Shown: piece by piece, positions 21,829-61,739 of the stretch
How the letters are laid out: every line of letters begins with the position of its first letter
How positions within the stretch are numbered: the first letter of the stretch is position 1
Assembly: GCA_921293015.1 (NCBI GenBank)
Contig: OV121083.1
Coordinates: 32,046,908-32,110,907 of the forward strand
DNA length: 64,000 bases
Direction of reading: 5' to 3'
Origin: Phorcus lineatus
Lineage: Eukaryota; Mollusca; Gastropoda; Trochida; Trochidae
Notes under the pieces: model-generated
Seen by the model: the letters and a program-made list of their open reading frames with translations, nothing else
Databases searched by the model: none
What the model was told of the DNA's origin: nothing
Translations under genes and position numbers: made by a program

Positions 21829-24800
21829 GTAATACTTCTTATGTACTTTGTATTTCATGCTTATTTATTTATTTATGTATTTATTCATGTGTGCGTGTTT
21901 CTAAGTATCTTGTTTATTTATTTATTCGATCAAAATACATTAGGTATAAACAGCTTCAGTTTTGCGAATTGTATATTTAAACCATAATAGACAGTATAGG
22001 GTAACTTGTGTGAAATGGCTATCTTTCCTACACTTAGACTTTATCAATTACATGTCCAGATTTTATGTCCCAGTCAATACCATCTTTTTCATATATTTAC
22101 GAGGAGATATAAAAATACAATTATCATCAAGAGCTACTGACCAACTCGGATAGAATTTTTGCATCAACATTAGTAATTGTTATCTAGTTAATGACCAAGA
22201 GCTATCTACTTCACCACAATCAGTCTTATGCTAGATGATTCGACACACCAGTATACTAAGTATTTAGAATAACGAGGCGCACAATGAAGTTTTGTCACTT
22301 AACTGCTTAACGTAATGACAAGATTAGATACAACTTGCATATAGGAAAGGGCTTTCCAAAAGGATAAGAGCACCGTACAAAAGTTTTGTGATGGTTCAGG
22401 AAGATCGCCATGTAAAAATAAAAATGGTTATGAATGAGTCCGGTTTGAGTTATGGCGGTGCACGGAACATCATTCACAACCAACTGCACGTGCTGTTCAA
22501 AATGTCAAAAAGCTTTTTCTCGTTAACCGACTCCTCTTCGAGGGACCTGTCCCGATAGGTGATGGAGTTTCTAGACCAGGATACAGAAGATATCTTCAGA
22601 CGCCTTAGACTATCTTGTTACCATGGTAGATCGTGAGCTTTTTTACGGCTTTCTCAGACAAAACATGAGTAAAAAGTAGACAAATGCAACGCCACCAAAA
22701 AAGAAAGGTCAAGTCCAACAGTCTGCAGTAGTGGGGCCATTCTCAACGGACTTAAAAGATAGCAGACCATCACCGGGCATAATACTGCAACCTTCTTAGC
22801 AAGATACGCGATACCATCAGACAACTACGCCGTCGGTTGTTCGCTTGCTGACTGACAACACAAAAAACCACATCAATCAAGCAGCTGTCTTGGAAGCAAG
22901 ATGAGATGACTTCGATATCCTATGGCATTGACCCAGTTCTCATTTACATTCTAAAAATGTTAAAAGGACAAAGAAGCAAAGAAAAGGTCTTCTCAATCTG
23001 AGATCTTAAAATCAGAAATCACCTATCGCTCGGCTTTACGGATCTCAACCAGGTGACCTTGCACCAATTCAAACAGACGCCCGCTAAAATAAGAGCAAAT
23101 CCTGACGAATGTCTCGTCCTTGTTTGGCTGGAGTGCAACGGTCATCTGACAAAACCACTATCGATCGTTACTAAGATAAGAAACGCAGCGAGGTACGCGT
23201 GAACGATTCGACCCCTTTTCAAAGAGGCTGAAATTCTAACCTGAAAAGTCTTGGTGATAATCATAAATTTTTAGCTCATCTGGCCTGAAAGGCTTGACGG
23301 GCTTGTAGTGGCATGACATGGCTTCCGTCCGTCCGTCTGTAGACTTTTCACTATTTCGACTTCTTCTCCAGAGCCATTGACTTAAAAAATCCAAAAGCTT
23401 GTGTACAGACTCCATGACTAATGAGTTTTCTAATTTATAGATTTGGTGACCCTGTGACCCCTGTTAAGGGCCTCAGGGGGCCACGCCTCAAAAACCTATT
23501 TTCATCTTCTCCAGAAGCAAGACACCCAGAAAACTTAGATCTCGTGTACTGACTCCTTAGCTGATAGGGTTTCTGATTTATAGGTCTGGTATTCTGTGAC
23601 CCCTCATTAGGGCCACAGGGACCACACGCTTAAAACCTATTTTCATCTTCTTATCTAGATTAAAGAGTCATAGCAAAATGAAACCATGTGTACTGGCTCG
23701 ATTGCTGATGGGGATTCTAATTCATATATTTGGTGACCCTGTGACCCTACGGAGACCACGACCTTAAAACCTATTTTCCAAAGGCAAAAGACCTTTAAAG
23801 CTAAAGTCTTGTGTACAGACGGCTTAACTGATAAGGATTATAAAAAATGGATTTGATGATCCTATGGTAGCTCATTTGGTGACCCTGTCACCATATTAAA
23901 CAATTGTAGATAGCCTGAAGAGCTACAGAGCTAATGGCTCTACTTTTATTTCTAATTACGATATTGATTAAAAAAGAATTTATTCAGGACTCTTTCATGT
24001 CAAAAAGAGGACATTGAAACTTAGTTTACAAAATTTCAATTACAGAGCTTTCTGCGTCCTATGAATTCTACTTCCTAGGAGAGACGATACAATTTACGTG
24101 TAGGGTGACCAACTCCAGTGTGCTGTCCGTTATAAATTCCTCTACAGATGATGTCTACCTCCGCCGTTCTAAATCCCATAAAGCGTTAGGTCTAGTGACG
24201 TCATGTGACAAGACGTCAGTGACGGTCGAGATGGAAGTGACGTCAATAAATGACAGGGGCATATACTACTGCACTGTGGGACCAGCACCTCAGGAGCACC
24301 TTGGCCTCGGCAACTGGTTCATTCAGGTTGAATGTAAGTATTTTGCTGTTCCTCGTTAAATAAATAAAAAGTCTCTCGGAAAAATTCCCTTTATGATTGA
24401 AGAGAGTCGCGTCAGACATGTGACAGGCCAAAACGAAAACAATTAAACACTAGATCCTATTCATAAATGCTTACTTATTGTTAAATTTTGCTGAAGTCCC
24501 TTGATAATGATAACATTGTAGAATTTTTACAACATTTGACTTTTTTCTCTGCAAATATTTGCTAATCACGTAACACGATGACATCATTACAGACCTTTCC
24601 CTTCCATTCTAAATCTTTAATTACTTTATTCACAATTTCTGTGAAAACTTCAACCCATACATAGGTCTATATCAGGATAGGACGTCATTTCGAGATTGCA
24701 CTGTATGAATCAAATGTCAAATTCAACACGAGATTTGAGTTTTTACGAGTTGTTGTTATGAATAAGTGTACTAATGCCTACAGTAAATAACGCCTACAGG

Positions 24801-30800: not shown

Positions 30801-33800
30801 GTGTTATAAGTACACAAAAGTACACAAAAGGGTTACAAGTACTTATAATTCTCCTCTTAGTGCAAATAATGTGAAATAAAATTATATACATTAACTGTAG
30901 AGAAAATAAGATTAAAATGTTACCGATCGAAGTCATGGATGATGAGTTTTTGTAACGGAAACCTAAACTTTCGTACAAATGACTCATGGTAGCTATCTGA
31001 AATGTCTGTCAATGGATTCAGTGACCTTCTAAACATACATTTAGACACAGGGGGTGCATGGGGACCCCTAGTGGCCGGTGGACTAAAAGTTATGCAAGAT
31101 ATATATGAAACTACAATCAACAGGGACTGTAAACAATTTTGGAAGCTAGTGCAAAGATTCTCTCAAAATCAAAATCAATCTTCTCAAGAGATGCCCCAGC
31201 AATGGTTTCAATATTTCAGATACCTACTTAATCCAGATATTGAAACTGACTCTACATTTAATGAAGATGTGCAAAACTATTTTCAGGAACATCAATTTTT
31301 AGACTGTGATGACTAAGCACTATGTGATGATTTAATTGGAAGTAAAAATTCAGAGAATGACATTAAAAAGGCGATTGAAAAAATGAAAAATGGGATATCA
31401 CAAGGGCTTGATGGCATACCGCCAGAAACATTTAAAGCATCACTGGACTTTATTTTACCATATAAACTCTTCAAAAAAAGAAACTTGACACTGACTTTCA
31501 AAGTTCAATATAAAAACCTCAGATGCAAGTTAAACATTGAAATGAAAACTAAAACGCAGTTTGAAGATCTCTGTTCAGTAAATTTTATTCAGAATAAGCA
31601 TGATCTTGAAATGCACAGGTGCACAAGTGTTTCAAAATCACAGGGGTGCACAAATGTCAGTATCGGGTGTGGCCACCATTGGCATTGATTATTGCTTGGC
31701 ACCGACGACCCATGGATGCAACCAAGTTGTCAATCACAGCCTGTGGAATGTTCTGCCATTCGTGCTGAAGTGCTGCAAGAAGTCCTGGAAGTGTTTGGGG
31801 TGGTGGATTCCTACTGCGCACGCGTCGATCCAACTCGTCTCAGAGATGCTCAATTGGTGACAAATCTGGTGATCTCGCTGGCCATGGCAATGTCTGGACA
31901 TTGTTATGCTGTAAAAAGTCACGTGCAACATGTGTTCGAGCATTGTCCTGCTGAAATAGACCACCATGGACGTTGACGTGAGGAATAACGTAAGGCTGTA
32001 GGATCAAGTCCCTATACCGTACTCCTGTGAGGTTACCCACAACATGCACAAGGGGTGTCCTAACACCGTGACGAATCCCGGCCCACACCATGACACTCCC
32101 ACCTCCAAATGGGACAACCTCCTGAACACAGTTGGCAGCATAACGTTCTCCACGACGTCGGTATACACGTGCTCGTCCATCACTTCGTCGAAGCAGAAAA
32201 CGGGACTCATCAGTGAAGAGAACGGTTCTACACCTTGCACGTGCCCATCTCATCCTCTGTTGACACCACTGGAGACGTTCCGCCAGATGACGTTGCGTTA
32301 AAACGGGACGTCGAACCGGTCGTCATGGAAAAAGTCCAGCCTCTCTCAGCCTGTTGCGTACCGTTTGGTCGGAAATTCCACGCAGGCCTGCCATCTGCGT
32401 TGTTGTTGACGTTGCTGTCCTGGTGCGTTCCCGAAGGTGGAGCAGTCGGATGTACCGATCTTGGGCCCGAGTAGTCACCCTTGGTCTGCCTGACCTTGGC
32501 CTATCATCAACGCTGTTTCGGGTGTTGAAACGGGTCCACAATAAAGAGATGGTCTGTCTGGACACGCCAAAGTGTGTTGAAACATCTCGCTGCGTCGCCC
32601 TTGCTTGCAGTCTGCCAATAGCGTTGTTGCGTTGCGCTCTGTTCAGTCTTGGCATTGTTCAGGTCGCTGTACCGATGTTGTATAGTCTGAATGAACAGCG
32701 GCTGATATGGCTTTTTATACAGAAAATGCATTTGGACGAATCGCTCGTTTTCATCCCTGAACACAACGTTAACTTTTTGGGCCATAGTTTTTTTTGTAAA
32801 TTTACACTTTTGAGCAAGCCTTTCTTTAAATTACAGGTATGTATCATTAAAAAAAAAATGACCCGTTTCGAAAAAAATCAATTTCGCATGAATGTCAAGT
32901 TTCTTTTTTTGAAGAGTTTATGTGTTTCTTGTTTTACATGGTATTAGAGACTGGATATTTTCCACAAGCCTGGAACTATGGACTTATAACAACTATCTTT
33001 AAGAAAGGAAGCAGATCAGACCTTAATAACTATAGGGGAACCACTCTATTGAATGTAATGGGCAAGCTGTTTACATCAATAATAATAAGACTTACAACAT
33101 GGTTTGAACTGAAAAACTGTATCTCTGAAGTGCAATCAGGATTTAAAGAAGGACGTTCTATGATCAATAATGTATTTGTTCTACAATCATTAGCACATAA
33201 ATATTTAAGAAAAAATGTGGTAAATTTTATCATTTTCTATGTAGAACTAAAAAAACCTTTGATGTGGTGGACAGAACCAAATTACTTTATATAAGCTTAC
33301 AGAAGTGTTTACGTGGAATTAATTTTAAACTTCTCAAAAGTGTGTTCACAAATGTGAAAGCTTCAGTTAAACTAAATTCTCATCAATTCACAGAATTATT
33401 TGACACACATGTGGAATTAGACAAGGATGTATGCTGTCCCCATTATTGTTTTTTTTATCTACATTGATGAATTGGATAATACTATGAAAATTGAAAATCA
33501 CTGATTGTGATATTGATGATGTTATCTTACTTTTATTTGCAGATGATGTTGCTATATTTAGAAGAAAATGCTTTGTTTGGAAAGTATTGTACAAAATTGG
33601 GCGCTACTGATAATATTGATAAAAGTAAAATTATTGTCTTTAAAAATGGAGGTACACTTTCTCAACATGAAAAGTGGTTTGTTAACGGTAAACTTATAGA
33701 GGTTGTGTAATATTACAAATATCTGGGTATAGTTTTTTCATTTAGAATCGTTTTCTCTCATGTATGTATAACATTAGCTAAAAAGGCAAACAAGGCACTT

Positions 33801-36800
33801 TTTCCTGAAATAAGAAAAAATATTAAAGTTGTACATACAAAATATTGTAAATATGTGTTAAGAATAGCATACAGATTTTCTAATAATGCTGAACTTTGTG
33901 AGCTAGGAAGAATGAGATTGTATGAACATGGTATTATCAAGGTTATAAAATTTTGGATAAGATTGTTAAGAATGGCAACAGGCAGACAACCCAGACATTG
34001 TTATCTAATGGTTTGTAAATATGATGAGTTACTAGTTAGGGTACAGTAACTGGGTATCGTTTGTTAGATATATTCTATTTAGCTCTGGATTCGGTAGTAC
34101 TTGGATAATGCAGGACCTTATAAGATATTTATGAAAACATTTGAATTATGGTTAAGAGATGTTTTTACTCAAAATTGGTTTACTTCTATTTCTTCATCAT
34201 TTACTTTAACAAGGTATTGTACTTTTAAATCTCTCTTACAACCTGAAAAATATTTAATGTCCATTCATCCATCAAATTTGAGGTTTTTTTTCGAAATTTC
34301 GGTGTTCAAATGATTTTAAAAATAAATAGATGTAGTAAACATTTTAATGACGCTTTATGCGAATTATGTGGAACAGGGGGAGAAGATGAATACCATGTTT
34401 GTTGATATGTACATCTTATCATTATCTGCGTACAAGATATTTACCTACATACTATCATAGATACCCATCAATGTTTAAGTTTATGTCACTCATGAATACG
34501 CAAATTGATGAAGTGTTATTTAAGCTAGCTCTTTTTTGTGAAAAAAATGTTTAATTTACGAAACTTTGAAAAGCTCTAAGAGCACTTATGTATATTTTAT
34601 CATCACAAACCTTGTTACCACTGTACTATTGATCTCATGGCCAAATATACGAAATTAACTCTGTTCTGTTCTGTATTCTCTATTGCATATTTAATCTTAT
34701 AGAAGGTTGGTGAACTAGCCATGCATAGAGATGTGGGGTTCAGTAGCGGTTTGGTCGGAGCATTTTTGAAATGATTTTTCAAATGTTTCCTTGTATTCTA
34801 TAGTATAGTCAATGATTTGAAAGCAGATACGTCTTAGTGTTAGGCTATATAAGTCACCATGTTCAGGTTAACTACTATAAAACTATTCGAAAGATAAGCA
34901 CATCAATGCTAAAATTCTAAGTACACAAACTTTGACCAAAAAATATTGTTATTGTATTAAAAAAAAAAATTAATTTGATGTTGTAAACCTATTATTTGTA
35001 TATCAATATTTTCATAACGTCTTCGAACTCAAACAATAAACCATGAAAGACTGATGAACTTCAGAGCCAATGCTCTATTTCCCCTTGTTATTCTTAAAGA
35101 TAATTTAGGCCGCACATATAATTAAAAAACTTTTTTCCGCGCTTTGACAGACCAGCTAGAGGCAGTGAACAACATGAGCTGTGTGACCGAGAACTTCTTG
35201 AGCATCGCTTGTCGTTACGAGCTACCACTTGACTACATTCACCCTGAGAAAATCATTGCTACGGTATTCTACTTCCTCCCGTAAGTACACTCTGACTACA
35301 GCATTATAATCTTCTCCCCCACAAGTACACTCTGACTACAGTATAATATTCTTCCCTGCCATAAGTACCCTCTGACTACAGTATAATATCCTTCTCCTGC
35401 CATAAGTACACTCTTACTAGAGTATTATATTCTTCTCCTGCCATAAGTACATTCTGACTACAGTATAATATTCTTCTCTTGCCATAAGTATACTCTTACT
35501 ACAGTATAATATCCTTCTCCTGCCACAAGTACACTCTGACTACAGTATGATATTCTTCCCTGCCATAAGTACACTCTTACTAGAGTATAATATTCTTTTC
35601 CTGCCATAAATACAGTCTGACTAGAGTATAATATTCTTCTCCTGCCATAGGTACACTCTTACTAGAGTATAATATCCTTCTCCCGCCATAAGTACACTCT
35701 GACTCCAGTATGATAATATTCCCCTGCCATAAGTACACTCTGACGACAGTATAATATTCTTCTCCTTCCATAAGTACACTCTTACTAGAGTATAATATTC
35801 TTCTCCTGCCATAAGTACACTCTGACGACAGTATAATATTCTTCTCCTGCCATAAGTACACTCTGACGACAGTATAATATTCTTCTCCTGCCATAAAATG
35901 TTTTTTTCAAATTCTTTTCTTAATCCATCATTTAATATTGGTGTTCCAAGTTACGATTTGACATTGAGACTATTTTATAAAAAGACATTCTTAACTGTTT
36001 TGTCTGTAAATAGGATGATATATGTCATCTGCTCATTTTAAAGTGATAATTTTATTTATTGATCTGCTAACAATAGTTGTATTCTCTAATTTAGAAAAGT
36101 ATTTTGTAGGTTTTTCTCCCTCTTCAAACCATGTTATTCTATTTCTTATCTGAATACCTTTCAAGTCCTCCTCTTTTATGTGTACTAGTTCTTGTACTTT
36201 GAAAGTTCTGAGAGCATATCTTCGTCTACATTTTGAGAATCCGTTTTTAATAGTGTCTTCACAATTCGTAATTTTTGTTTCTAAATCAGATGTCTATTAT
36301 TTTTAATAAGATAAATAAGATTCAAAATATGTATTTTTGCCTCCAACAGCAAAGTCTCAATGAAAAAATTATCGCTTTTTTTTTTAGCTTAATGTAATCA
36401 AAATTCTGATTCATAAAGTTGCTTTCAGATATATCAATATCAGCATATTTTTTTTATTTTTTATTTGATCCGATGACTATATTCTGGATAAACGAGTTAT
36501 GCAGTTATTAAGGAGTTCTTGAATTTCCCTTATTCCTTACCTTCTGTTTGAATTAAAGTATGAGAGGGTGTCTGGCCGTGTGGTCTGTTTTGTAGCCTTG
36601 TAAGAAAATGGTGTTTAAAGTTATATCAAACATATCTTGAGAAATTAGGAAAAAACTTTTTCTCCACCAAGTATATTTTCTAATACTTTTATTTATTTAC
36701 CTCTATACATCAAAGAGATCAAGAGATGTTGTAAATGTTCTTTTGCAACATCTCTTGATTTGGGGTTGTTTAAATGTTGGTCACTCTCTAAATCAACCGA

Positions 36801-39800
36801 GGAGTCCAAAACTGAAGTTCAAATCTCTTTCAATTATTAATGAGTCATTGTAGAGAGTGTATACTGTGAGCACGTGCTAAGTCCAGTGTTCTACTACCAA
36901 CCGTGAGAACATTCTTACCCTAGTCTTCTATTTCCTGCCGTGTGCACGTTCTGATCTAAGTCTTCTATTTCCTGCCGTGTGCACGTTCTGATCTAAGTCT
37001 TCTATTTCCTGCCGTGTGCACGTTCTGATCTAAGTCTTCTATTTCCTGCCGTGTGCACATTCTGATCTAAGTCTTCTATTTCCTGCCGTGTGCACGTTCT
37101 GATCTAAGTCTTCTATTTCCTGCCGTGTGCACGTTCTGATCTAAGTCTTCTATTTCCTGCCGTGTGCACGTTCTGATCTAAGTCTTCTATTTCCTGCCGT
37201 GTGCACGTTCTGATCTAAGTCTTCTATTTCCTGCCGTGTGCACGTTCTGATCTAAGTCTTCTATTTCCTGCCGTGTGCACGTTCTGATCTAAGTCTTCTA
37301 TTTCCTGCCGTGTGCACGTTCTGATCTAAGTCTTCTATTTCCTGCCGTGTGCACGTTCTGATCTAAGTCTTCTATTTCCTGCCGTGTGCACGTTCTGATC
37401 AAAGCCTTCTACTTCCTACCGTGAGCACATTCTAAACCCCAGTCTTCTACTGATATGCAGACGATTTGTGTTTGTTTTCAGATAGTGTTATTGGTTTGCA
37501 AAGGAAGATCAACTTGTTGGTAGAATTTTGCAACAGATGGAGATTGATTGTTAATTTGACAAAACAGAAGTTATAGTTTTTAGAAACGGTGGAAAACTTA
37601 AGAAAAGTGAATTTTTTTTAAGAATAAAAAAAATGAAAATTTCACCTTACTATAACTATTTGGTTTAAACATATTTTATTCATTTCAAAGAAAAAAATGG
37701 ATTGGCAAACAAGCTGGAAGCTTATATTAATGCCGCTCCAAGAAAAAATTATATCTAAAACCATCGAACATACAACACGAAGTTATGGCAAACCAATACG
37801 ATGTTCAATTGCAACACAATTCGGTTAAAGAGCCACTCCGTGATTTTCATAACATATTATTTACCTTTGATACGAACCTAAATGTCATACGTGGTGATAT
37901 AAAATCAAAACATCTTAACTTTTCATGTCCCTAAGACATATATATATATATGACAAATATTGGTTTTCCATGAAAATCTAAAAACAGCCTTATAAATGCA
38001 CAGAGGTGTAGATATCACGTCCAATATTAATATGAGGGTAGTACGTCGCAATTATGATCGAAAACCGGACAGTGGCGCGCGTCAAAGAGTCAAACGGTAT
38101 TTTGGAGACTTATCTAAAACTGCCAGGAGGGCACTTAGGAGTTGATAGTGTTTGTTAGGTTATATAACTAGTATCCATGTATATTGGACCTCTGTGCATT
38201 TATAAGTCTGCTTTTAGATTTTCATGGAAAACCAGTATTTGGCATAGATAGATCTTTTGGACATGAAAAGTTAATATGTTTTGATTTTATATCACCACAT
38301 ATGACATTTAGGTTCGTATCAAAGGTAAATAATATGTTATGAAAATCACGGAGTGGCTTTTTAAGGTATTCAATATTACAAAAGCAATTTCTTCATGCTG
38401 ATTTAGAGATAATAAAGTTCAACTCATTTCTTATCAAATCTACAGGAATGGGTGATAAAAAGGTAAACATATTGTTTAATAGCCGAGTTGTCAATATCAG
38501 ATAACTCTTTATTTCCATTTAGAATTGTTTTTAAACTGTATCCATTTTTGTAGAATAACGCTTCATTTCTTAGCAGTGAGTAATTTGGATATAAGAGTAA
38601 TGGAGTAAATAATGTGATGTACCTTTGTGGTCTGCGCCGCATGAACATAACGGGTCATTTGAAATATGTCTCTCAAATTTAAGAAAATTTAGATAGCTAC
38701 ATCCTAAACGGTGTCTGCAATGGGCGATTTGACAAAATCGATTTCCGTTATCCAGATCAAATCCAAATGAATTTCCTTGTCTAGGGATTATTTTCTTAGT
38801 AGACATTTTCTGGGATTCTAACATTTTTATGTTTTTTGGTAAAGCATTCCAAAGATCAGTTGTACTTGGAAATGATTTTGAATAAGTAGATGTTTTAATT
38901 TGAATATTTTGTATCTTTTTGATGAGTTTCTTAAACCGTATGGATTTCCTGCCGATACACTGTCTGGAAGTACAGGTGTAGGTCACATAAATAATTTGGT
39001 GCTTTATCGTTTACCATTTTATAAAAAAGGGTTAATTTTTGTAAACGTCTTCTGTCATTTAGAGGTATGAAAATAGTTTCTGCATACATTTTATTATGAC
39101 TTGTGCCACATGTGGCCAAACATATACTTCTAAGTCCGTCTAATTGTAATTTTTCTAAATTGGCTTTTTGGGTTGCCATGCAGTTATCCCAAATATGACA
39201 ACAATAGTCAAAAATAGGTAAAATGAAAGACTAATACATGGTCTGTATGATTTACGCGATAGGGGGTATTTCAAACTCATTAAGCAATTGAACAGGAGTA
39301 ACTTTATCTACAATACAGACAAGCATCTTCTTGCAATATAAGACCTTATTGTTTATGTTCACCAACTTTAGTAATAGGAATACCTTGCATGTTTAAGTGA
39401 GGCTTAGAGCTGGCCACCCGCTTTTTACTAAACTGAGTTGTTTCCGTTTTTTGAGGGTTGAATTTTACTTGCTATTTAATTGCCCACATAGAATTCAAAT
39501 CATCATTAAGTTTGTTTGCTTATAAAACCGGATCTTCTATTATTACATATAACTATTTTGGATTGCTCTTTTCCAATAGGTTGTCATGGTCAAAGTCTTT
39601 CCAAAATCTTGTAAACAAAGCCTCTAATGCTCTATTTTCAGTTAAACTTCTTAGTCAAAAGATTAAAATTATCTCTCCGTTGGTGCTCTTTAGAATTCTT
39701 GATGTTCTACTTCCTACCATGAGCCCATTCTGATTCAAATTTTCTACTTCCTACCGTTTTAACGTTCTGATTTCAGTCTTCAACTTCCTTAAGTAAGCAC

Positions 39801-42800
39801 ATTTTTAAGCCAGTTTTCTATTTCTTAACCCCAGTCTTTTACTTCCTAGCGTGAGCACATTCTGATTCAAGTCTTCTACTTCCTTCCGTAAGCACATTCT
39901 GATCAAGGCCTTTAACTTTCTACCGTTACTACAATCTGATAATAGTCTTCTACTCCTTCCGTAAACACATTCTGATTCCAGTCTTCTACTTCTTTCCGTA
40001 AACACATTCTGATTCCAGTCTTCTACTTCTTTCCGTAAACACATTCTGATTCCAGTTTTCTACTTCCCTCCGTAAACACATTCTGATTCCAGTCTTCTAC
40101 TTCCTTCCGTAAACACATTCTGATTCCAGTCTTCTACTTCCTTCCGTAAACACATTCTGATTCCAGACTTCTACTTCCTTCCGTAAACACATTCTGATTC
40201 CAGTCTTCTACTTCCTTCCGTAAACACATTCTGATTCCAGTCTTCTACTTCCTTCCGTAAACACATTCTGATTCCAGACTTCTACTTCCTTCCGTAAACA
40301 CATTCTGATTCCAGTCTTCTACTTCCTTCCGTAAACACATTCTGATTCCAGTCTTCTACTTCCCTCCGTAAACACATTCTGATTCCAGTCTTCTACTTCC
40401 CTCCGTAAACACATTCTGATTCCAGACTTCTACTTCTTTCCGTAAACACATTCTGATTCCAGTCTTCTACTTCCTTCCGTAAACACATTCTGATTCCAGA
40501 CTTCTACTTCCTTCCGTAAACACATTCTGATTCCAGTCTTCTACTTCCTTCCGTAAACACATTCTGATTCCAGACTTCTACTTCCTTCCGTAAACACATT
40601 CTGATTCCAGTCTTCTACTTCCTTCCGTAAACACATTCTGATTCCAGACTTCTACTTCCCTCCGTAAACACATTCTGATTCCAGACTTCTACTTCTTTCC
40701 GTAAACACATTCTGATTCCAGTCTTCTACTTCCTTCCGTAAACACATTCTGATTCCAGTCTTCTACTTCCTTCCGTAAACACATTCTGATTCCAGTCTTC
40801 TACTTCCTACCGTAAACACATTATGATTCCAGTCTTCTACTTCCCTCCGTAAACACATTCTGATTCCAGACTTCTACTTCTTTCCGTAAACACATTCTGA
40901 TTCCAGTCTTCTACTTCCTTCCGTAAACACATTCTGATTCCAGTCTTCTACTTCCTTCCGTAAACACATTCTGATTCCAGTCTTCTACTTCCCTCCGTAA
41001 ACACATTCTGATTCCAGTCTTCTACTTCCTACCGTAAACACATTATGATTCCAGTCTTGCTGATCCCAGTCTTCTACATGCTAACGTGAGCAAATTCTGA
41101 TTCAAATCTTTTACTTCAAACGTAAGCACATTCTTATCCTTCTTCTCCTTATACTCCTTCTTCCGTGAACGTATTCCTTTCCTCACAAAGTCCGTCCAAC
41201 TACTTCTTCTGCTTCTTTTAAATTACCTAGACATATAAACACTTTGTTTGGTTATCTTAGAGACGTTTTGTTTTGCTTGTTTTGTTACCTATTCCAAAGG
41301 CGAGATTGGCAAGTTGTTTAGCGGTGTTGACTAACTCAGAGGGTGTGGGTTCGAATTCTTTAAAGTAAAAAAATGTCTACTATTGCAGATAGTGTGATTC
41401 CAAATATAGCAATATAACACTTGCCGTAAGTGTTGAAATGTGAATGATAATGGAGTAAACCATTATATGACTGTCATTGTTGCTGTTACATAGAGACTAT
41501 GAGGAGCCTGAGGAGGAGGCTTATCGAGGAGTGGAGAGAAACTTCACTCTTGGTCCGGGCAACAACTTGGACTCCAACTACACTTTCACAATACTGCTCA
41601 CACACACGGAGCGCAATGAGTCCGCACTCTCAAGCCCCTTCTTCTTCAATCCACAAACTGAAGGTATTACCTTGGACACTTATCATACGGTACAATGTAG
41701 GCTATTAATATGTAGCCACGAGCAGTCGTAACAATGAATAATGATTTTACATATTTGGACAATTAACATCCCAATCCCTTATTATGAACTCAGTGCCGAA
41801 ATTTGGTCTTTTTGAATAGAATTTCAGAAGTCTTTACAATACTATCACTTTGGGAACATCCCAATCTAAATAAATGTACATCGACAGTTTGTATTATGTT
41901 ATTGGCCTATATGAAATATCGACCCGTTGGCCTTATTGTTGGTTTGCAATGTTTTTTTTTTATTTCAAAGGTGACGATATTATGGTTGAATAGAATCATT
42001 TTTGTTATGTGAATAAAACATTTCCTGCACAGTCTGTAACACAAGTGTAGAAGCGAGCGGATCTCACACATACTATATCAGATAATTAAAAAAATACACA
42101 TCAATGTGAATTGATTAACAGTGGTTAAAATTTTACATTTGAATTTACTAAGAAGAGGGACAAACTGTTATAACCACATGAAGTCAGGCACCGGAGGAGC
42201 AGAATTTTGTAGTTACATGTTAGATCCCCTTGTCAGACTGTTTAAGAGGCGTTTTTCACTGTTGTCAAGTGTTCAAAATATTTTTTATGATATAATGTTA
42301 ACAATAATCTGTTCAGATTCAGTCATTTAGATGTTTGCGTCTTTAGAGGCGAACATAATGAAATATCAGTTTCCTTTCTTTTAATGTTTACATGGTGTAA
42401 CTATCCTGTAAAGTGTTTGGGAAATGTTCAAGACGACATAACATCTTTGAAGTCACTGTGTCACTGAAATCACAAAACAAAATTCCTTTATTGGTTTCAC
42501 CCTCAAAAGTAACACAAAGGGATGTGTATCAAGTGTGGTATAGATATCTTGTAAAGTTTGGGAGATATGCTCCAGATAAAATGACTTTCATACAGTCACT
42601 GTTTAAATAAAATTTCCATGGAAACCAAAGAATAAAATTCATTGAAGACCTAACCCGTAAAAAGCACATTTCAGGATCATGGTTGATATGTGTATCAAAT
42701 TTAGTGAAACTAACATGAAATAAGTTAAGAAGATATTCTTCTGACAAATAATTTTGTCATAGAGTAACTGTTTAGTAGAATAAATATTTGTAGAGAAACC

Positions 42801-45800
42801 CCAACAAATTCACGTGATACTTGTATTAAGTTTTCTGAAGCTGGCAGTAAGTGATAACACTCCAAACCGCCTTTTTACAGTCAGTGTTCCTAACATCCTT
42901 CTCACAATCAAAGCTCCAAACCACCTTCTCACAATCAAAGCTCAATAACGCCTTACAGACAATGATCCAAAAAACTTTCTCACTGTCAACGCTTCAAACC
43001 ACTTTCTCAAAGTCAATTCTACAAACCACTTTCTCAAAGTCAATTCTACAAACCACCTTCTCACAGTCAAAGCTCCAAACCACCTTCTCACAGTCAATGC
43101 TACAAACCGCCTTCTCAGAGTCAATACTTCAAACCGCCTTCTCACAATCAATGCTACAAACCGCCTTCTCACAGTCAATACTTCAAACCGTTTTCTCACA
43201 ATTAATGCTCCAAACCACCTTCTCAGAGTCAATGCTCCAAACTGCCTACACATAGTCAATTCCTCAAACCACTTCCTTACAGTTACTGTTACAAACCACC
43301 TTCTTACACTTAATGCTCCAAACCACCCTCTTACACTTAATGCTCCCAACCACCTTCTAACAGTCAATGCTCCCAACCACCTTCTTATAGTCAATGCTCC
43401 AAACCACCTTCTTACAGGCAATGTTCCAAACCACCTTCTTACAGTCATTGCTCCCAACCACCTTCTTACAGTTAATGTTACAAACCACCTTCTTACACTT
43501 AATGCTCCAAACCACCTTCTTACATTTAATGCTCAAAACCACCTTCTTACAGTCAATGCTCCAAACCACCTTCTTACAGTCAATGCTCCAAACCACCTTC
43601 TTACAGTTAATGCTCCAAACCACCTTCTTACAGACAATGCTCCCAACCACCTTCTTACAGACAATGCTCCCAACCACCTTCTTATAGTTAATGTTACAAA
43701 CTACCTTCTTACAGGCAATGTTCCAAACCACCTTCTTACAGTCATTGCTCCCAACCACCTTCTTACAGTTAATGTTACAAACCACCTTCTTACACTTAAT
43801 GCTCCAAACCACCTTCTTACATTTAATGCTCAAAACCACCTTCTTACAGTCAATGCTCCAAACCACCTTCTTACAGTCAATGCCCCAAACCACCTTCTTA
43901 CAGTTAATGCTCCAAACCACCTTCTTACAGACAATGCTCCCAACCACCTTCTTACAGACAATGCTCCCAACCACCTTCTTACAGTTAATGTTACAAACTA
44001 CCTTTTTATAGTTAATGTTACAAACCACCTTCTTACAGTTAATGTAACAAACTACCTTCTTACAAATAATGTAACAAACTACCTTCTTACAGTTAATGTA
44101 ACAAACTACCTTCTTACAGTTAATGTAACAAACTACCTTCTTACAGTTAATGTAACAAACTACCTTCTTACAGTCTACTTCCAAACTGCCTTCTAACAAA
44201 AAATGCTCAAAACTGAATTCTCACAGTCAATGCTTCAAACCGCCATTTTATAGTCAATCCTTTTTTTATTTTCAATGTTTCAAACCGCCTTCTAACAGTC
44301 GGTGTTCTAAACCACCTACACATCGTTAATGTTCCAAACCAACTTCTTGCAGCCAATGCCTTAAACCGGCTTTTTATTGTCGATGCTCCAAACTGCCTTC
44401 TTATAGTCTGAGTTCTTAACTGCCTTCACATTGTCAATGTTCCAAACCAACTTCTTGCAGTCAATGCCCGCAAGCACCTTCCTACGATCAGTGCTTCAAG
44501 CTGATATCTTACCCTTGGCGGTCACTCCTTGTTCTACCTTCATTGGCCTCAACTAACAGTCAGCAGCACAAACAATATCTTTCAGTCGACGGCCCTAAAC
44601 AACATTTTAAAAGCAGTTGCCACAGCATTTATATGATACTCAGTAAACTTGGCAGCTGCAACATATGTATATCAATCTGCAGTCACAATAGATATCTTAC
44701 AGTAAGCAGTCACAATAGATATCTTACAGTAAGCAGTCACAATAGATATCTTACAGTAAGCAGTCACAATAGATATCTTACAGTAAGCAGTCACAATACA
44801 TATCTTACAGTAAGCAGTCACAATAGATATCTTACAGTAAGCAGTCACAATACATATCTTACAGTAAGCAGTCACAATAGATATCTTACAGTAAGCAGTC
44901 ACAATAGATATCTTACAGTAAGCAGTCACAATAGATATCTTATAGTAAGCAGTCACAATAGATATCTTACAGTAAGCAGTCACAATAGATATCTTACAGT
45001 AAGCAGTCACAATAGATATCTTACAGTAAGCAGTCACAATACTAGTAGATATCTTACAGTAAGCAGTCACAATAGATATCTTACCGTAATCAGTCACAAT
45101 AGATATCTTACAGTAAGCAGCCATAACTGATCTTACAGTAAGCAGCCATAACTGATCTTACAGTAAGCAGCCATAACTGATCTTACAGTAAGCAGTCACA
45201 ATAGATATCTTACCGTAAGCGGCCATAACTGATAACTTACAGTCACAGTCTTATTCATATTTCTCCAACGACATGCTAACCAATTCTAGTCTTTATAATA
45301 AATGATATGTTTATTTCAAATTTTCAGGTTCCATGATCTTTAATTACTTAAAACTGTAGTGGCGACGGCCATGATACAAGTGTTCTTTCATACGCAACCC
45401 CAGAGAGCAGTCGTTATGCTCGACCTAAGGGAGTGATACTTAGTTGTTAAAGAGTCATGATTAACAGTTTCTATAATGCAAATATCAACTGAATTAAATT
45501 AATGGCCTATTTCTACCGCATTATCACTTCTGTGTTCATTGGCTATAGAAATCGAAGCAATGAATTCATGTCGAAGGGCAAGGCTTTTAAAGATAGACGT
45601 TAAGACATCTTTGCAACTTACATGATTAAAGTTAGGAAACCAACCAAACCAAATAAATGCATCGTTCTTATTTCATCAATGATGTATTAAAATATTTGAA
45701 GTATCAAAATGAAAATGTTGTTGTGTTACAGTAAAACCAGACCGAGTGAAACATCTGCGCGTAATCAATGTGACATCATCCACTGTAATTCTACGATGGG

Positions 45801-48800
45801 AGTCCCCCGACGAACAACATCATTACATCTGCTCAGTAGAATCCTTTATTGGAACTACAACACACGAGCTGGTGGGTACATCTACCAGGTCACAGTTGTC
45901 GCTTTACTATAAACAAACATAACCGTGTTCTACCCATTCATAGTCTCAAGTCTCAGAATTATATTGAAGTAAATAGGATAGTTTCAACGTCTGTACATAA
46001 GCTGTTCTACTGTAAATTTAAACGAGGTATTGTGATATATCAATGGCATTTGAGGATGAATATCTAAGATGTTTTGAAATATTTCAGCCAGTATGTTAAA
46101 TTAAGCCAAAGATAACGTCAGGAAAAGCATGGGAAGTCATTTTAACACTGGAATGTAATTAAGGCATGGATGGATCCGTGTTCAATTTAAGATAGAAAAC
46201 GGAGACTTACACTTCGATCAAATACAGGCTTACAACATTCGAAAAAAAACGTTGCTGGCAGTCAAGCATTGAGGACTATGTTTCAGAACCGGGAAGATGT
46301 TAGCACAGTGCTAGGGTCGAGTCGCGAACAGGAGATGAAGTTGTCCGGCCTTGTTCCGTCCACTACATACACTTCCAGTGTCCGGTGTAGGCCGACCAGA
46401 TGGACACACCAACCTTTCGGCTACAACAGTGACATAGTAGTCATCAGCTTCAAGACTCTGCCAGATAGTATGTATAATATAACAGTTAAAAATCAAATGT
46501 TATTTAATACTGTATAATTTGGGTATTGAATTGTAATTCAAACTGCCCCAGTAAACGTTTATTTCCTTTAGAGTGGATGTTTGATGTTTGGTATCTTTGT
46601 ATCTCCAGCGCCTGACGTTGCACCACTCCTCGCACCTGCCGTCTCCAGGCCGACGCTTCAAGACATCCAGTTGTACTGGCAGGTAATTTCCTTGAAACTT
46701 TCTAGACTAGATCGCATTGCTCATATAAACAAGACAATGAAGTGAAAAAAGGACATACATATAAATAAACCAACCTCATTCAAACCAAATAACAGAATAA
46801 AATAACGTATAAAATAAAACTATAATGGCGGTGATCCAAGATAGTTGCCCCTCAGTGTAAAAGTCATGAGTTATGGTTACTTGATGCGTTTAAGACGTGA
46901 CAATTGGGGTGTGAATTTTCGTGGAAACAAAGAGTCATATTTTATTCCTAAAGATTGAAAAGGTTGTTTGTCGATGTATTTATGAAGGTCTACGCTAACG
47001 CAAACGTTCTAATTACCGATAGAGGAATAAAATTGTGTATTGAATAGATCGATATAACTTTCGTATGTGGCACTGAACTCGAAAGCTTGACAATCTACCG
47101 TCACGCATTGAATATAACCTATTTCCTCTTATTAGGTTTCCGGGGCCCAAATTATCAACATTTGAACGCTCTTATATTGAAATATCAGCTCTTATTTTAT
47201 GCATGACCCTCATACTCTTGAAAGGTTTGACCAAAGTTAACTGAAATCATGAGCTTGGAACAAGCCTATACCTCAATATTATACTTGACGTATCACAAAG
47301 GCAATTAATTGCCAGCTAATACACCAACGTGCAAGGTGGTGGAATCACCAAGAATAATTTTCGCTTTGCGAATAATAAGATTTATTGGCCTTACTCCTCT
47401 TACCTATTTATCGCTTGCGGGCCAAAGACCTCCAAGTAATAAACAGCTGACGAATTTCCCTAATTGCCGATATGTCTCACTCAATGATATTTGGCCTATT
47501 TGTATCATAGCACATCGAATATCCAATGAACAGAGCTGTGAACCATGTGACCATGTGGGTAACAAAAAAATGTGGCATGCTTTAATGTGGAATTATATTT
47601 AGATATCATTAAAATGAAATCTAAAATGCTCCACTACAGTACGCGTGTAGATCTTACCAGGCTCCGTTACGCGTTAGGTTTGGCTCTGGCATAATTTAAA
47701 TCAGCCAATCAGCGAGTACACCCCGTACTTTAGGGTGCGGGCGAATTCAGTTCGCTTGTACGCTTTTAAGCACTCGGAAACCGAAAATTTCCGTCTGTTT
47801 TCCGAATGTCCAACTGTCCGAATGAATTAATTTATGCACTTTCAATTTACCCTAGCTCGGTTTGTTGGACAAAAAGTCAAATCGAAAGCTATGGAGTTAT
47901 CTTTCGCACAGCAAACTCTGCATACCTCAATGTAATGTTTTAGTAGACGGGACCAATCCAAAATGCTTTTACTGGAAATAAACGTTTCAAATCAGCCAAT
48001 CAGCGAGTATACCCCGTAATTTAGGGTGCAGGCGAATTCAGTTCGCTTGTACGCTTTTTAGCACTCGTAAACCGAAAATTTCCGTCGGCAACTTCCGGAT
48101 CCGGCCTTATCAACAGTAATGAGTGATAATGAAGATCAAATCTTTGATGTGTTTAGTAAATGTACCTCTTGATTCGCGATTTGCCAACTTCATAAAAATT
48201 TAAGAGTTACGTACTAGTGTATTTTGCATAGCAAGGATACAGACTATTGTTGTTTTGTGTGAGTTAATGGTCAGTGTTTGAGATAAAGAGTGTGGTACCA
48301 ATTTAGAGTGACCTAGGCCAATATTTTCAATAACTGAGAGTCTGCTGTACCTTCCTGATGAAAGGTATATATATATATAAATTAATTTTAATCTCACGGC
48401 AGTGATACATGTGTATATATCTATATTTAGATTAATAAAGGATTTTATTTTGCATTCAGTATTTGCTATATCAAATCTCGCAATTATTTAAGAATTTCAT
48501 TTCTCAAGTATAGACAGTTTTCTCCTTGTGTTATTTATGTGTTCCTTCATAACTTTTATTGTCATTTTCAGTCATTATAGCAACACACATGCATTTGCAA
48601 TTTCCTGTTTCAAGATTGTTGCATGCTTCGATTGTTATATATTGTTGATTGTGATGTAAGTTAAAGCCTGCTTGGAAATGTATTGCAAATATGAATTTGT
48701 TTCAGTTTTAACTCTTTCAACCAAATAGAATTATTAACGCTGAAAAGCATATTATTTCCATTTCCTTCAGTACTTTAGTACCGGTATGTTACCAGAGAGA

Positions 48801-51800
48801 GGCTTTTAGTTACCTAACACTTCTTTTTCACGACAGACAATATAGTCATAAAGTTATTACCTAACAGTCTACAACATAGTGCCCCACAGACCTGTACATT
48901 ATGGTAATTAAGCAATAAAGTTAATGAACTCAGCACCTGGCACATTTCCAATTAGGTAATACACAAGGCACTGATTAGTTATCTAAACTTTAACGAATGC
49001 GACCCATATCTGCATTTGGTATATATACTTGTTTACAAACAAACGCGGAGCAAGTCCTGTCTATGACGTCACATCCGCCGAAGGAGAGCTCATATGTGCG
49101 CAGCGACTTTTTTTTCAATTGTGCTTTTGAGGTGGCCAATTTCTACGCACTTTGAACCGTCATATCTTTTTAATTAAAGGACGCATCGAAACACTGTTTG
49201 GTGTTTTATTCACTTGAATGTATTGTCTATATGGAAATGGGGATTGAAGTCGGATAAAATACAACCATGATGACAATGTTTGCCGTAACCGGAGACTTGC
49301 GGTTTAAACACAGTAGAATATGGCTAAATCTGACAAAATCGAAGATACCTATAATGTCGTGTGTATAAGAGATACATAACCCACCCAACGTATGATTTAT
49401 TTGACACTCATTTAATTAAAAATGAAAGCAATGAAAAACGTTGAAATAAAATTGGAACCTTCGATACAGTCGGAATAGCATAGGGAATAGCATACACAAT
49501 AATGGAGTCTTCACGTCTTCTTGATCAGGTGTCATCAAATATGCATGTTGTCACGTTTTCATCAATTATATTGACAGTACTTAGGGCATCTAACATAACA
49601 TTAGAATGGTATTCAACTGATGTCATCTCTGATATGTTTACAGCCCTTGGAGAAGATAAGCGAGAACGGACCCCTCCGTCATTACAATTTAGAGTTGAAG
49701 TATGGCGGACACAGAGTCACGAAGAAAGTTAATATCAGTCAACATACATTGCGTCTCCCACTCGGCCTCGTCCAAACCAGGCTCCACGTGTCCCTCAGCG
49801 TGGTCAACATAGTCGGGGAGTCCCCTGCCTCCAGGCTCACCGTGTTCCCCCAACACACAGGTCCGTACATATCTGTAGCACTTTCTGGATTACCTCCTTG
49901 TTTGTTGCATACTGAATGTATGTGTGTCTCTCTCCCTGCAGAGCCTCCGATTGATCCTAAGTTCAGGGTGACTGGACGCGGCAATAACTCGGAGGTAACC
50001 TTCCACTGGACGGCGGAGGCAGGTTTCACCTGTTGTCATGTTTTTTGGTGTCAGAAGAAAATGGCAGACACAACCTGTCAGGTGAATAATCATTAAAATC
50101 CTTGCATTGGGAAAGTTAATAGAAATAGTTTGTCGATCTTCAATAGATTTCAATAGCACAAATGACATATAACGAATGATTCGGGTTTTTTTCCAAATAA
50201 TGTCCTGTTACAGTTGTAACGGTTTCTTGCATTCGACTGTTTGTGTTCATATGCAGCGCCAACTGTTCTGGAAGACATTGCCTTGTGTGAATCAGAGTGT
50301 GAAGGTGGACACAGGCCGACCAGTGGGCGAGCAAAGCCTGCTGGTGGGTTTCTCGTCACAGATGGCTGGACCACCACATTCCGGAAGCAGCATCGTCTGG
50401 ACTCACTGCATATACGTCATGCATGCTGGTTAACATCCTTATACTCTTCATCGATATCCTTAATAAATATGCTTTTAACATTGCAGTGATTATAGTTACA
50501 CAATGCAAATTGTTGAATACTATTTCATCAAGTTTATGCTATCACCAATAAAGACATCTGATAATGTGACCAGCGTGTATGATCAGTACAAACATGTGTG
50601 TATAACAAAACATTAGATCATTACATATATGAATGAAGAAAAAGAATGAGTGGTCCCGACATTTGATGTGCCATAGTGAACATAATTGTGTTTATGTGAT
50701 ACATTTATAGTATATTCTTGATATACATTTCCTAACATAACTATCCTGTACTTTGGAGGATGAATAACGTCTCTAATATATTGCCTAAACATCTGTGCAG
50801 TTTTACATATATGTATGTGCTCACAGTGCCCGGGCCGATGACGGGGTTGAAGGGGTCGAGGACGCAGCCTCCCGGAGGTATCCAGGTGGAGTGGCGCACC
50901 CCGGACTGTGTGGAGGCCCCTGTGTTCCTGTCTCACTATCTCGTCTCCTACTGTACAGTCCGGAAACGAAACCATACTTGTGCAGGTAGATGATGACAAA
51001 TGAAATTTTAGAAATTTTCGATAAATGTATAGAGAAATTTAAAACAAGGCAAATTCTTTCACAAAGCTTGAATCATAACTAATCTTATATATAGCCTGAT
51101 GACATAATCTTGAAAGAACATTAAGCGCTAGGATTTTCATGGGCTTGAGGCATCGTCAAGATGTGGGCAAAATAGTTGACATGTTTAGTACTTTGTCACG
51201 ATGATTCCGTTATTTAGTGGATCGCTTGAGAACTTAGCATTACGTAGTGTGGTAGATGATCGGCACTGATCGCATGGGAGTAGTGTCAGTATAAGGGAGT
51301 GCAATGTAACGTAGCGGGCTATCGTAATGTATCACCCAAATATGGCTCTCACAGTAAACATTTCTTGTGTGAGATCAAGCGATAACTACATATCTACAAT
51401 CAGATTGTCATAATGCTATTAACTAATCAGCTAATGACATTACAAGGGTTTGACATCGTTGAAAATGCTGTGAAATGAAGTCATATCATTTATCCTTTGT
51501 AAAAGTGTGAATAATTCAAAACAAATGTTTCACCTTTATTTCGTAAAAATTAGTTACAACTCGGCATCTTTATCACCTAATTAAAAAAGGCAAGATTACG
51601 AACCGATGGTCGATGGTGCCTCTTTGAACAATCACCCAACAAAAGTAACATGGTTTCGAAGATTTATTTCGAACTTGGATCGCATCATAGCTTAGGCTAA
51701 TGTGACCTACCATAAACGTAGCATTCGGTTGTAAGAGCAATGCGGCTAGTGTACGGTAGTGCTGATTTCTCGTTACAGGACCTGTCATGAACGACATTGT

Positions 51801-59857: not shown

Positions 59858-60286
59858 GTATGTTGTCTCAAAGCTTTGACGCATTTTTGTTGTTGAAAAT
59901 CAATAAATAAACAGGTACGTTCCGATAATTGTTAGTTTGTCAAAGAATATCGGCTTCATATTAAAAGACTGTAGTGTACGTGGACCCACTGACTTCATAT
60001 GCATATCATTGTACTATAATGATGACAAGCCCCGGGGGCCTCATTTCAAGAAATCAAACAAATGTAATTTTAATATTAAACTGGAAGTCAAAACGTGGTC
60101 AACACTAGTATAAGAGAAATACTAATGAACAGGTGCCCTTAAGTTTTATTTTTAAAATTAATTTAAACAGTTTCTTCCTGTCGTTATAAATATTTTCCCA
60201 TCAACATTTAAGAAGGAAGATCTGCATCTTTTGGACTAGGCTTGTATGAATTAGATTCTAATATTTATGTTTTAGTGTAATATTTC

Positions 60287-60345
60287 AAATGTGGGCCCTT
60301 TGTTGTCAATCTCCTATAAGCGACAAACTAAGAGGGCCCACATTT
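60287..60345. repeat. Hairpin H1
   Basis: The stem AAATGTGGGCCCT pairs perfectly with AGGGCCCACATTT around a loop containing CTCCTATAAGCGAC. G-C version of the variable pair. Confidence 0.75.
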
Positions 60346-60416
60346 TAAAAACCCATGAAATCATGTACTGATATTAATTAACAGATTTTAATCTTGATGT
60401 TTTTGTGTAATATTTC

Positions 60417-60473
60417 AAATGTGGTCCCTCTTGTCACTCTACTATAAAGAAAAAAAATAGGGGGACCACATTT
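60417..60473. repeat. Hairpin H2
   Basis: AAATGTGGTCCC pairs with GGGACCACATTT; the loop has CTACTATAAAG. T-A version of the variable pair. Confidence 0.75.
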
Positions 60474-60756
60474 AAAAAAAGCATCAAATCATGATGCAAA
60501 TAGAGAAAATATGAATTCTAAAATGTTGAGAATTTAAAATTTTTATTTTTGATTTTGAGGGGAACAAAACTGTTAAATTAATTGAATTTAAGAAAACAAG
60601 AAAGGTATTTGAGAACTTATATTAAATGATTAGTTCGATGAAATCTTACCTGCTTGATTTTATTGAGATATTTCTATCAACAATTAAAAAATCCTTAACT
60701 GCATTTTCTTATATAATGGGGAACACTGTAATCTTGATATTTTTGTGTAATATTTC

Positions 60757-60815
60757 AAATGTGGTCCCTCTTGTCATTCTACTATAAAGAAAAAAAAAAT
60801 AGGGGGACCACATTT
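60757..60815. repeat. Hairpin H3
   Basis: Same stem as H2, from which it was duplicated as part of the 341-bp unit; the A-run in the loop is two bases longer. Confidence 0.75.
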
Positions 60816-61108
60816 TAAAAAAGCATTAAATCATGATGCAAATAGAGAAAATATGAATTCTAAAATGTTGAGAATTTTAAATTATTATTTTTGATTTTGA
60901 GGGGAACAAAACTGTTAAATTAATTGAATTTAAGAAAACAAGAAAGGTATTTGAGAACTTATATTAAATGATTAGTTCGATGAAATCTTACCTGCTTGAT
61001 TTTATTGAGATATTTCCATCAACAATTAAAAAATCCTTCACTGCATTTTCTTATATAATGGGGAACACTGGTATTTATAAACAGCTAGTGCGTTTTGTTT
61101 AATATCTT

Positions 61109-61167
61109 AAATGTGGGCCCTCTTTTATCAGTCACCTACATGCCACAAAATTAGGGGGCCCACATTT
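61109..61167. repeat. Hairpin H4
   Basis: AAATGTGGGCCC pairs with GGGCCCACATTT; loop with CACCTACATGCCAC. G-C version. Confidence 0.75.
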
Positions 61168-61739
61168 TTAAAAACTATAAAATCATGATTTTGATACAGA
61201 AAATGTGGATTCTAACATGTTAAGATATAAAAAAATTATTTTCATATTGAGGGGAACAAAACAATTAAATCAATTGAATTTTAAGAAAACATGATAGCAT
61301 GGTTTTGGATTTTATTGAGATGAGATGAACTGCATTTTCTTTTACACTGGTAGAAACAGATTCTGATGGTTTTTGTTTCATATTTGAAATGTGGGCGAAC
61401 TTTTGTCTAGTCTCAATCGTAGATGGAAACCACGCTCCATCACAACTTTGTCCTGACCTTGTATCAAATGCATCAACCAATGAACGTACACGGATGATCC
61501 ATGATCCCTGACCTGACCTTCTTTTGACCAATGAGAAAGCCCTGCTCGTTGCTATGGCTGCGTACACGATCGTCCTTCTCTCAGTCGGCCAAAAATAACT
61601 TGGATCCACATTAATTCGTAGAATAGTTCCCATAGTGTACTTATTTATTTAAATAATGTCGTACTTGATCCTCAAATACAATGTGGGGGCATTACATAAT
61701 ACGTTTAAAGTTATTAAGCTTCAAAAACTGTCTCGTAAG

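Follow-up and report, generated by a model that had tools for sequence, protein, structure and literature searches.

The 64-kb stretch analysed here (the window: Phorcus lineatus, contig C5:32046908-32110907, + strand, G+C 36%) comes from a genome of 957.8 Mb over 74 contigs. It holds a gene that, by its predicted protein, is a gp130/IL6R-like receptor gene. The third intron of this gene contains three minisatellite arrays, and their units resemble the boundary between exon 3 and intron 3. We consider it likely that the arrays were seeded at this boundary, and that the same happened in a probable tandem paralogue of the gene. All results come from one assembly and from DNA sequence alone. The intron and its flanking exons, with exon ends of the host gene set by eye from splice sites and frame, comprise the following features in window positions.

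35151..35280, + strand: exon 3, phase 1 to phase 2, predicted first half of the receptor's second extracellular domain.
35264..35300, + strand: putative seed junction, the exon 3/intron 3 donor, with 17 exonic and 20 intronic bases and the donor GTAAGT at 35281.
35265..35896, + strand: array 1, 41-bp unit; the junction itself is the first copy, followed by 15 copies.
36886..37453, + strand: array 2, 37-bp unit; GTGTGC occupies the donor position, and each end has degenerate old units (36886, 37404).
37454..39700, no strand: insert between arrays 2 and 3, resembling a miniature inverted-repeat transposable element (MITE), with an inverted repeat of 121 nt (93%); edges by eye.
39702..41153, + strand: array 3, 37-bp unit; GTAAAC occupies the donor position, and each end has degenerate old units.
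41494..41663, + strand: exon 4, phase 2 to 1, predicted second half of the second extracellular domain.

Tandem Repeats Finder (TRF) placed array 1 at 35265-35896 (41 bp x 15.5), array 2 at 36922-37433 (37 bp x 13.8) and array 3 at 39831-41058 (37 bp x 33.2). This bears out a preliminary description of the locus, which had reported three arrays in one intron with units of 37 or about 41 bp. That description let array 1 start exactly at the donor; its start lies 16-17 nt upstream, within exon 3. It had correctly recognised the repeat region but closed it at 41140, a little short of the tandem signal, which reaches about 41153. Several old units flanking array 3 retain GTGAGC or GTAAGC. The insert at 37454..39700 apparently split an older array. 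It includes a MITE-like inverted repeat (37825-38364) with arms of 121 nt (93%) and 66 nt (91%), and TTCTACT is present at both insert edges, which may be a target duplication or just the repeat register. One isolated segment outside the arrays (38554-38600) beat its 100 shuffles, which we take as chance.

The arrays are alike to the exon 3 junction, and this likeness is confined to intron 3. The junction 37-mer found 65 further gap-free matches at 23-30 of 37 positions, all on the + strand and all in this intron (starts 35304-41069), while the best match outside it was 21 on the + strand and the maximum over the whole - strand was also 21. Junction and array 3 consensus agree gap-free at 30/37 positions, reproducing the earlier count by hand, and at 24/28 positions without the donor consensus (-3 to +6). 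The units contain both exonic and intronic boundary sequence, because 13/14 exonic and 11/14 intronic positions of the array 3 consensus match the junction outside the donor core. In this they resemble the tandem repeats over exon-intron boundaries that were named 'mirages' in amphioxus (PMC3087553; PMC3902484). Among 58,027 other positions outside the arrays, the array 3 consensus scored 21 at best.

Shuffled controls, which the preliminary description had suggested as a check for chance similarity, placed the likeness beyond chance. Compared with intron 3, letter-shuffled junctions reached 24 at best and shuffles that preserved purines and pyrimidines reached 29; the observed score of 30 was attained by 0/1000 of each kind. 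In a comparison of 12 splice junctions with five arrays, the exon 3 donor scored 53, 27 and 41 with arrays 1, 2 and 3, respectively (0/300 dinucleotide shuffles as good in each case), and all other pairs scored 18 or less. The body of exon 3 was also compared with array 1, where 26/1000 shuffles were as good, and this likeness is not claimed.

A tree of units and junction, proposed earlier as a check, was built from selected units. It has 33 rows (the junction with 14/15 units of array 1, 3/13 of array 2, 6/30 of array 3 and 9/10 old units) and 37 columns. The junction has a zero-length terminal branch that attaches between the two unit families, with array 1 on one side (support 98/97) and arrays 2, 3 and the old units on the other. 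It has 0 private changes, or at most 1 of 12 by hand-made consensus states (P about 0.05 under equal rates). Exon 3 ends in the codons GTA TTC TAC TTC CTC CC (V F Y F L P). Compared with the exon, the exonic parts of the array 2, array 3 and old-unit consensuses vary at just three sites, positions 3, 9 and 15. Each of these is a third codon position (3/3 variable sites, P 0.015; array 1 excluded from this count), and these consensuses still read VFYFL. This pattern would fit coding-exon copies that have since diverged at silent sites.

At the scale of the genome the units are equally local. The genome-wide unit searches covered the array 3 pattern, which also catches units of array 2, and the unit of the paralogue. 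The array 3 pattern (31 bases, up to 3 mismatches) gave 46 forward and 0 reverse matches, all within this intron 3, and its reversed-pattern control gave 0. Searching with array 3 DNA, by a method that skips very common words, gave 4 matches, all in this intron 3. Because 46/46 matches lie in its own intron, the array 3 unit is not a dispersed repeat; copies at many loci, as a dispersed element would have, were not found. Next to each copied boundary the repeats are locus-specific, for array 3 (46/46) as well as for the paralogue array (7/7). As a baseline, 30 loci with fn3 exons were taken, 98 kb in all; they are the best 30 of 150 listed matches, and many of them come from two clusters. They held two arrays, neither like its exon, and no mirage. 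Three 10-kb stretches with 19 fn3 exons, some of them shared with those loci, also held two arrays, with a best exon score of 21 taken without a shuffle control. The 30 loci, a small and clustered sample, thus did not bear out mirages as a widespread feature of this genome.

The remaining exons of the host gene, again in window positions, are:

24148..24333, + strand: candidate exon 2, Ig-like (DRGIYYC), phase 1 at its end, from a scan of splice sites and frame and chosen by eye among 3 candidates.
45732-45871, 46262-46467, 46609-46682 and 49644-49860, + strand: predicted exons 5, 6, 7 and 8.

Human IL6ST (gp130) matched joined exons 3-8 colinearly (phmmer E 1.1e-5, residues 90-307), with exon 3 outside the alignment. 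Exons 3-5 alone gave no IL6ST match, and exons 3 and 4 are assigned to the second domain by their position ahead of the IL6ST-aligned part. The joined exons also contain an fn3 domain (E 2.1e-10). A C-x9-C pair marks the start of the cytokine-binding module, and such a pair is present as CVTENFLSIAC in the host gene and as CEIIGQLTMWC in the probable paralogue. The WSXWS motif of class I cytokine receptors was not found in the host gene, which has NSDIV where the IL6ST alignment has WSDWS. IL6R-like receptors are reported from Mollusca (PMC13203501).

Searched at the protein level, the genome yielded a single relative of exon 8, at C5:32193209 (E 3.4e-6). This match is clear in a smaller search (E 3.6e-11), in which exon 7 also matches (E 0.006). 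The stretch between contains the following features, in contig positions.

C5:32164753: donor of the probable paralogue exon 3, 82.6 kb downstream of the first gene's (tblastn E 1.1, C-x9-C pair).
C5:32165188-32165472: array in paralogue intron 3, 35-bp unit.
C5:32165972-32166141: probable paralogue exon 4 (local score 35; alternative same-frame acceptors up to 39).
C5:32175439-32175569: predicted paralogue exon 5 (score 32).

The exon scan was restricted to the expected phases (for exon 4, phase 2 to 1), and several acceptor choices remained. Order, frames and cysteine pair agree with one another, and we regard exons 3 and 4 as probably assigned correctly. An array of 40 bp x 83 (C5:32175664-32178996) starts 95 nt past the predicted exon 5, with a consensus that is unremarkable against the tested junctions. 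A weak possible third relative of exons 3-4 at C29:40695835-40696149 (E 0.018, 27% identity, 3 TAA) could not be read.

The paralogue's intron 3 has repeats of its own exon end. Its 35-bp unit scored 29 with the exon 3 junction of the paralogue, a value that 0/2000 shuffles reached (mean 11.7, sd 2.1, best 27), and 12 with the first gene's junction; the reverse comparisons gave 12-13. The last 30 nt of the exon equal one unit minus 5 bases. Tandem signal exceeded the shuffles' 99th percentile in 31/32 windows of 45 bases over -33..+1052 of the 1219-base intron, in a scan of 38 windows with an older hand-read consensus; the six windows outside this range were negative. At C5:32164724-32165820, about 1.1 of the 1.2 kb of this intron consists of degenerate 35-bp copies of the tail of its own exon 3. 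All 7/7 genome matches of the unit pattern (32 bases, up to 3 mismatches) lie in this intron. When 18 arrays were compared with 20 junctions of both genes over 184 kb, the exon 3 donors reached 27, 41 and 29 in the pairings with their own arrays (array 1, which overlaps its junction, was excluded). The next-best pair, at 23 (sampled background maximum 20; array 51 kb away), is attributed to chance among 18 x 20 comparisons. No common origin of the two genes' units was detectable (score 10, shuffle mean 15, 482/500 shuffles as good). The preliminary description had looked to arrays beside an unrelated boundary as evidence against a link with the exon; the paralogue approximates such a comparison, and its different array matches its own exon 3 end.

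Donor strengths were scored with a donor frequency table. The authentic exon 3 donor scored 6.07 (U1 duplex -7.1). In array 1, 0/15 units have GT at the donor position, where A replaces the donor G (mostly ATAAGT, also ACAAGT). GT is kept in 43/43 units of arrays 2 and 3, as GTGTGC in 13/13 units of array 2 (score 0.65) and as GTAAAC in 30/30 units of array 3 (score -0.64 in 28 and 0.82 in 2). Over the homogeneous arrays 1-3, 0/58 copies are as strong as the authentic donor. The degenerate old units have GT in 9/10 cases, and 3/10 are as strong as the authentic donor. Seven homogeneous copies in the paralogue score -0.04 versus 5.66 for its own donor, and its intron also has three old-unit sites that score 5.66, 5.83 and 8.69 and one near the acceptor at 6.30. 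By these predicted strengths, homogenised copies carry weakened donors, with a different change in each array (three in the first gene and one in the paralogue), and old copies partly keep good ones. Intron 3 is not enriched in strong donors, because only 7 of its 375 GTs (6.2 kb) score at least as high as the authentic donor, versus 83 in the other 57.8 kb. The dozens of decoy 5' splice sites envisaged earlier are not what the scores predict: no homogeneous copy equals the authentic donor, array 1 has lost GT and strong GTs are not concentrated here.

These results argue for a mirage-type splice-junction minisatellite that was seeded at the exon 3 donor and repeated in the paralogue, an origin that we hold to be likely. 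A short stretch across the donor would have been tandemly duplicated at the DNA level, possibly by slippage, unequal exchange or repair synthesis, and the extra copies downstream of the authentic donor would have become intron. A duplication of 37-41 bp within the exon would break the frame, whereas one that spans the boundary would be spliced away. Boundary-spanning duplications could survive and expand because everything past the first donor is spliced out. Expansion from the exon 3 boundary probably took place at least twice: in its intronic part array 1 is nearest to the present-day junction, and an older form is common to arrays 2 and 3. The MITE-like insert would later have split the older array, which would then have been locally re-homogenised. 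With the donor core weakened in the homogenised arrays, the authentic donor would outscore all those copies. An equivalent event probably occurred at the very probably homologous donor of the tandem paralogue, leaving an intron 3 made mostly of copies of its own exon 3 tail. Seeding by a coding exon boundary, as the preliminary description had proposed, is well supported by a unit with no match outside the intron, by the zero-length branch of the junction and by the paralogue's own, different array.

Several points weigh against this origin. Few forks of the tree are supported, and it draws on 37 columns and selected units. The tests on third positions and on the zero-length branch are small and were made post hoc, with hand-read consensuses (P 0.015 and about 0.05). 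Codons are not respected by single old units, nor by variants within array 3, and the exonic part of array 1 has changed at -17, -10 and -7. In the paralogue, 3/5 variable positions are third codon positions and the other two are donor positions -2 and -1. Paralogue exons 3 and 4 rest on weak similarity (E 1.1; score 35-39) together with order and the C-x9-C pair, and the end of its exon 3 could have arisen by recruitment of a unit. The authentic donor is outscored by a few old units. The weak donors could reflect neutral decay that preceded homogenisation, and we do not claim selection for donor loss from four arrays (three in the first gene and one in the paralogue).

An alternative explanation, possible but rather unlikely, might be that one ancestral array predated the gene duplication and that exon end and array were kept alike by gene conversion (concerted evolution). 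Apparently the same junction is involved in both genes, unit lengths are similar (35 and 37), and the tandem structure takes up nearly the whole intron in the paralogue and is split in the first gene. However, the units of the two genes have no similarity, and their make-up differs: 17 exonic and 20 intronic bases in the first gene versus essentially exon tail in the second.

More doubtful is the reverse order of events, in which a pre-existing intronic minisatellite supplied the exon end, that is, exonisation with a donor recruited from a unit. This could explain why the final 30 nt of the paralogue exon (YTAALEYYPR) form a complete unit, with an in-phase donor-like CAG/GTACAC 30 nt upstream of the exon end. 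Yet, the exon tails IIATVFYFLP and YTAALEYYPR look, by their sequence, like the same domain strand, which would be truncated without the tail. Moreover, the two unit families are unrelated (482/500 shuffles as good), so that no shared old array is visible.

Slightly less probable still, the arrays might be functional decoys that bind U1 small nuclear RNA and regulate exon 3 inclusion or yield truncated receptors. GT is retained in every unit of arrays 2 and 3 (43/43), 3/10 old units match the authentic donor in strength, and the paralogue intron has three or four strong sites. In the first gene an in-frame TAA is read immediately past the authentic donor, and splicing from any later donor would therefore yield a truncated receptor. 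In humans, IFI6 repeat units do act as donors (PMC4526556). In contrast, predicted strength is low in all homogenised arrays, array 1 lacks GT and intron 3 is not enriched in strong donors; amphioxus mirages, too, are reported to leave regular splicing undisturbed (PMC3087553).

It is highly improbable that a dispersed repeat of Helitron or MITE type brought an internal minisatellite to this site: although arrays 2 and 3 are separated by sequence with a MITE-like inverted repeat, the genome searches found neither the array 3 unit nor the paralogue unit anywhere else, which rejects this origin for array 3 (by a pattern that includes array 2 units) and for the paralogue array. Chance similarity is practically rejected by the shuffle controls: both sequences are pyrimidine-rich and the purine/pyrimidine-preserving shuffle reaches 29, but 0/1000 of either shuffle reach 30, 24/28 positions agree outside the donor consensus, the window has no comparable match elsewhere, and the probable paralogue gives a like result.

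The receptor region seems rich in arrays, with 18 minisatellite arrays (period 15-120, at least 4 copies) over 184 kb (C5:32026908-32210907), versus 2, under a looser filter, in the 98 kb around fn3 exons. Intron 4 contains 27-bp arrays at 42860-45250 (52 and 21 copies) with CTTACAG motifs and spurious long open reading frames on both strands. These arrays, 4 and 5, were considered as copies of the exon 5 acceptor; they have only TTACAGTAA in common with it, and this is not claimed. The score of array 5 with that acceptor was equalled by 1/300 dinucleotide shuffles (60 pairs tested) and, under other scoring, by 116/500 letter shuffles. Array 4 scored 26 with the exon 4 tail, where 10/500 shuffles and 33/4553 windows were as good; this likeness is suggestive only. 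Elsewhere in the window, a tandem repeat of large period (342 bp x 2.6) lies at 60253-61291, and fragments of a DDE transposase (E 1.8e-6) and a reverse transcriptase (E 7.2e-5), both below Pfam cut-offs, lie upstream of exon 3 at 31840-33294. Viral contigs gave 0 matches, and neither Rfam at gathering scores nor a tRNA scan gave a match.

Human IFI6 (6-16, G1P3) is said, after Turri in 1995, to have an intronic minisatellite that gives splice donors. A later paper describes a minisatellite at an exon end of IFI6 with units used as alternative donors (PMC4526556). The present arrays are similar in being an exon-end minisatellite with donor motifs in the units, but in their homogenised copies the predicted donors are weak or absent. 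In human segmental duplications, growth of minisatellites at exon-intron boundaries alters gene structure, with new introns or exon changes (PMC2812944). Minisatellite growth at such a boundary is shared with our case, in which, unlike there, an existing intron would have been enlarged and the exon frame kept. The Rogers model, known to us as cited in PMC3087553, explains how introns are gained when AG/GT proto-splice sites are duplicated in tandem. Here, too, tandem duplication copies splice signals; in contrast to intron gain, intron 3 is probably not new, as the probable paralogue has a corresponding intron that is phase-compatible (the phase was assumed in the scan).

By their predicted structure, the present arrays have the features of a mirage. 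Amphioxus mirages occur in Adh3 and the globins BflGb6 and BflGb9, and also in TnC and PGBD5, with units of 10 to about 160 bp, and either boundary of an exon can be copied (PMC3087553; PMC3902484). As in amphioxus, tandem copies span a boundary and the array edges lie outside homogenisation. Unlike amphioxus, our case has 65 recognisable copies, three arrays from one donor and probably the same boundary in two paralogues; one intron is nearly all copies, and the predicted donors are weakened in the homogenised copies. In the literature searched, with most subscription journals beyond the search, no mirage by that name was found outside amphioxus, and the comparable cases are those of amphioxus and human. 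As far as this literature goes, the scale (three arrays from one boundary), the probable recurrence in a paralogue, the near-whole-intron copies and the weakened donors are new.

A speculative extension, to which we give little credence, is that exon 3 tail and array co-evolve, with the intron growing from the exon end and units at times being converted or spliced back in frame. If true, the array would serve as a store of sequence from which one strand of the cytokine-binding module of the receptor is remodelled, for which the 30-nt terminal unit of the paralogue is suggestive. Apart from this, our results indicate that a coding splice boundary can seed minisatellites more than once, probably at a homologous position in two diverged paralogues. 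Most of an intron may arise from copies of the end of the preceding exon, with the gene left intact. The locus would offer a natural experiment on how spliceosomes choose the first donor among near-copies, and a test case for whether expansion is tolerated only after the donor of the unit has been weakened.

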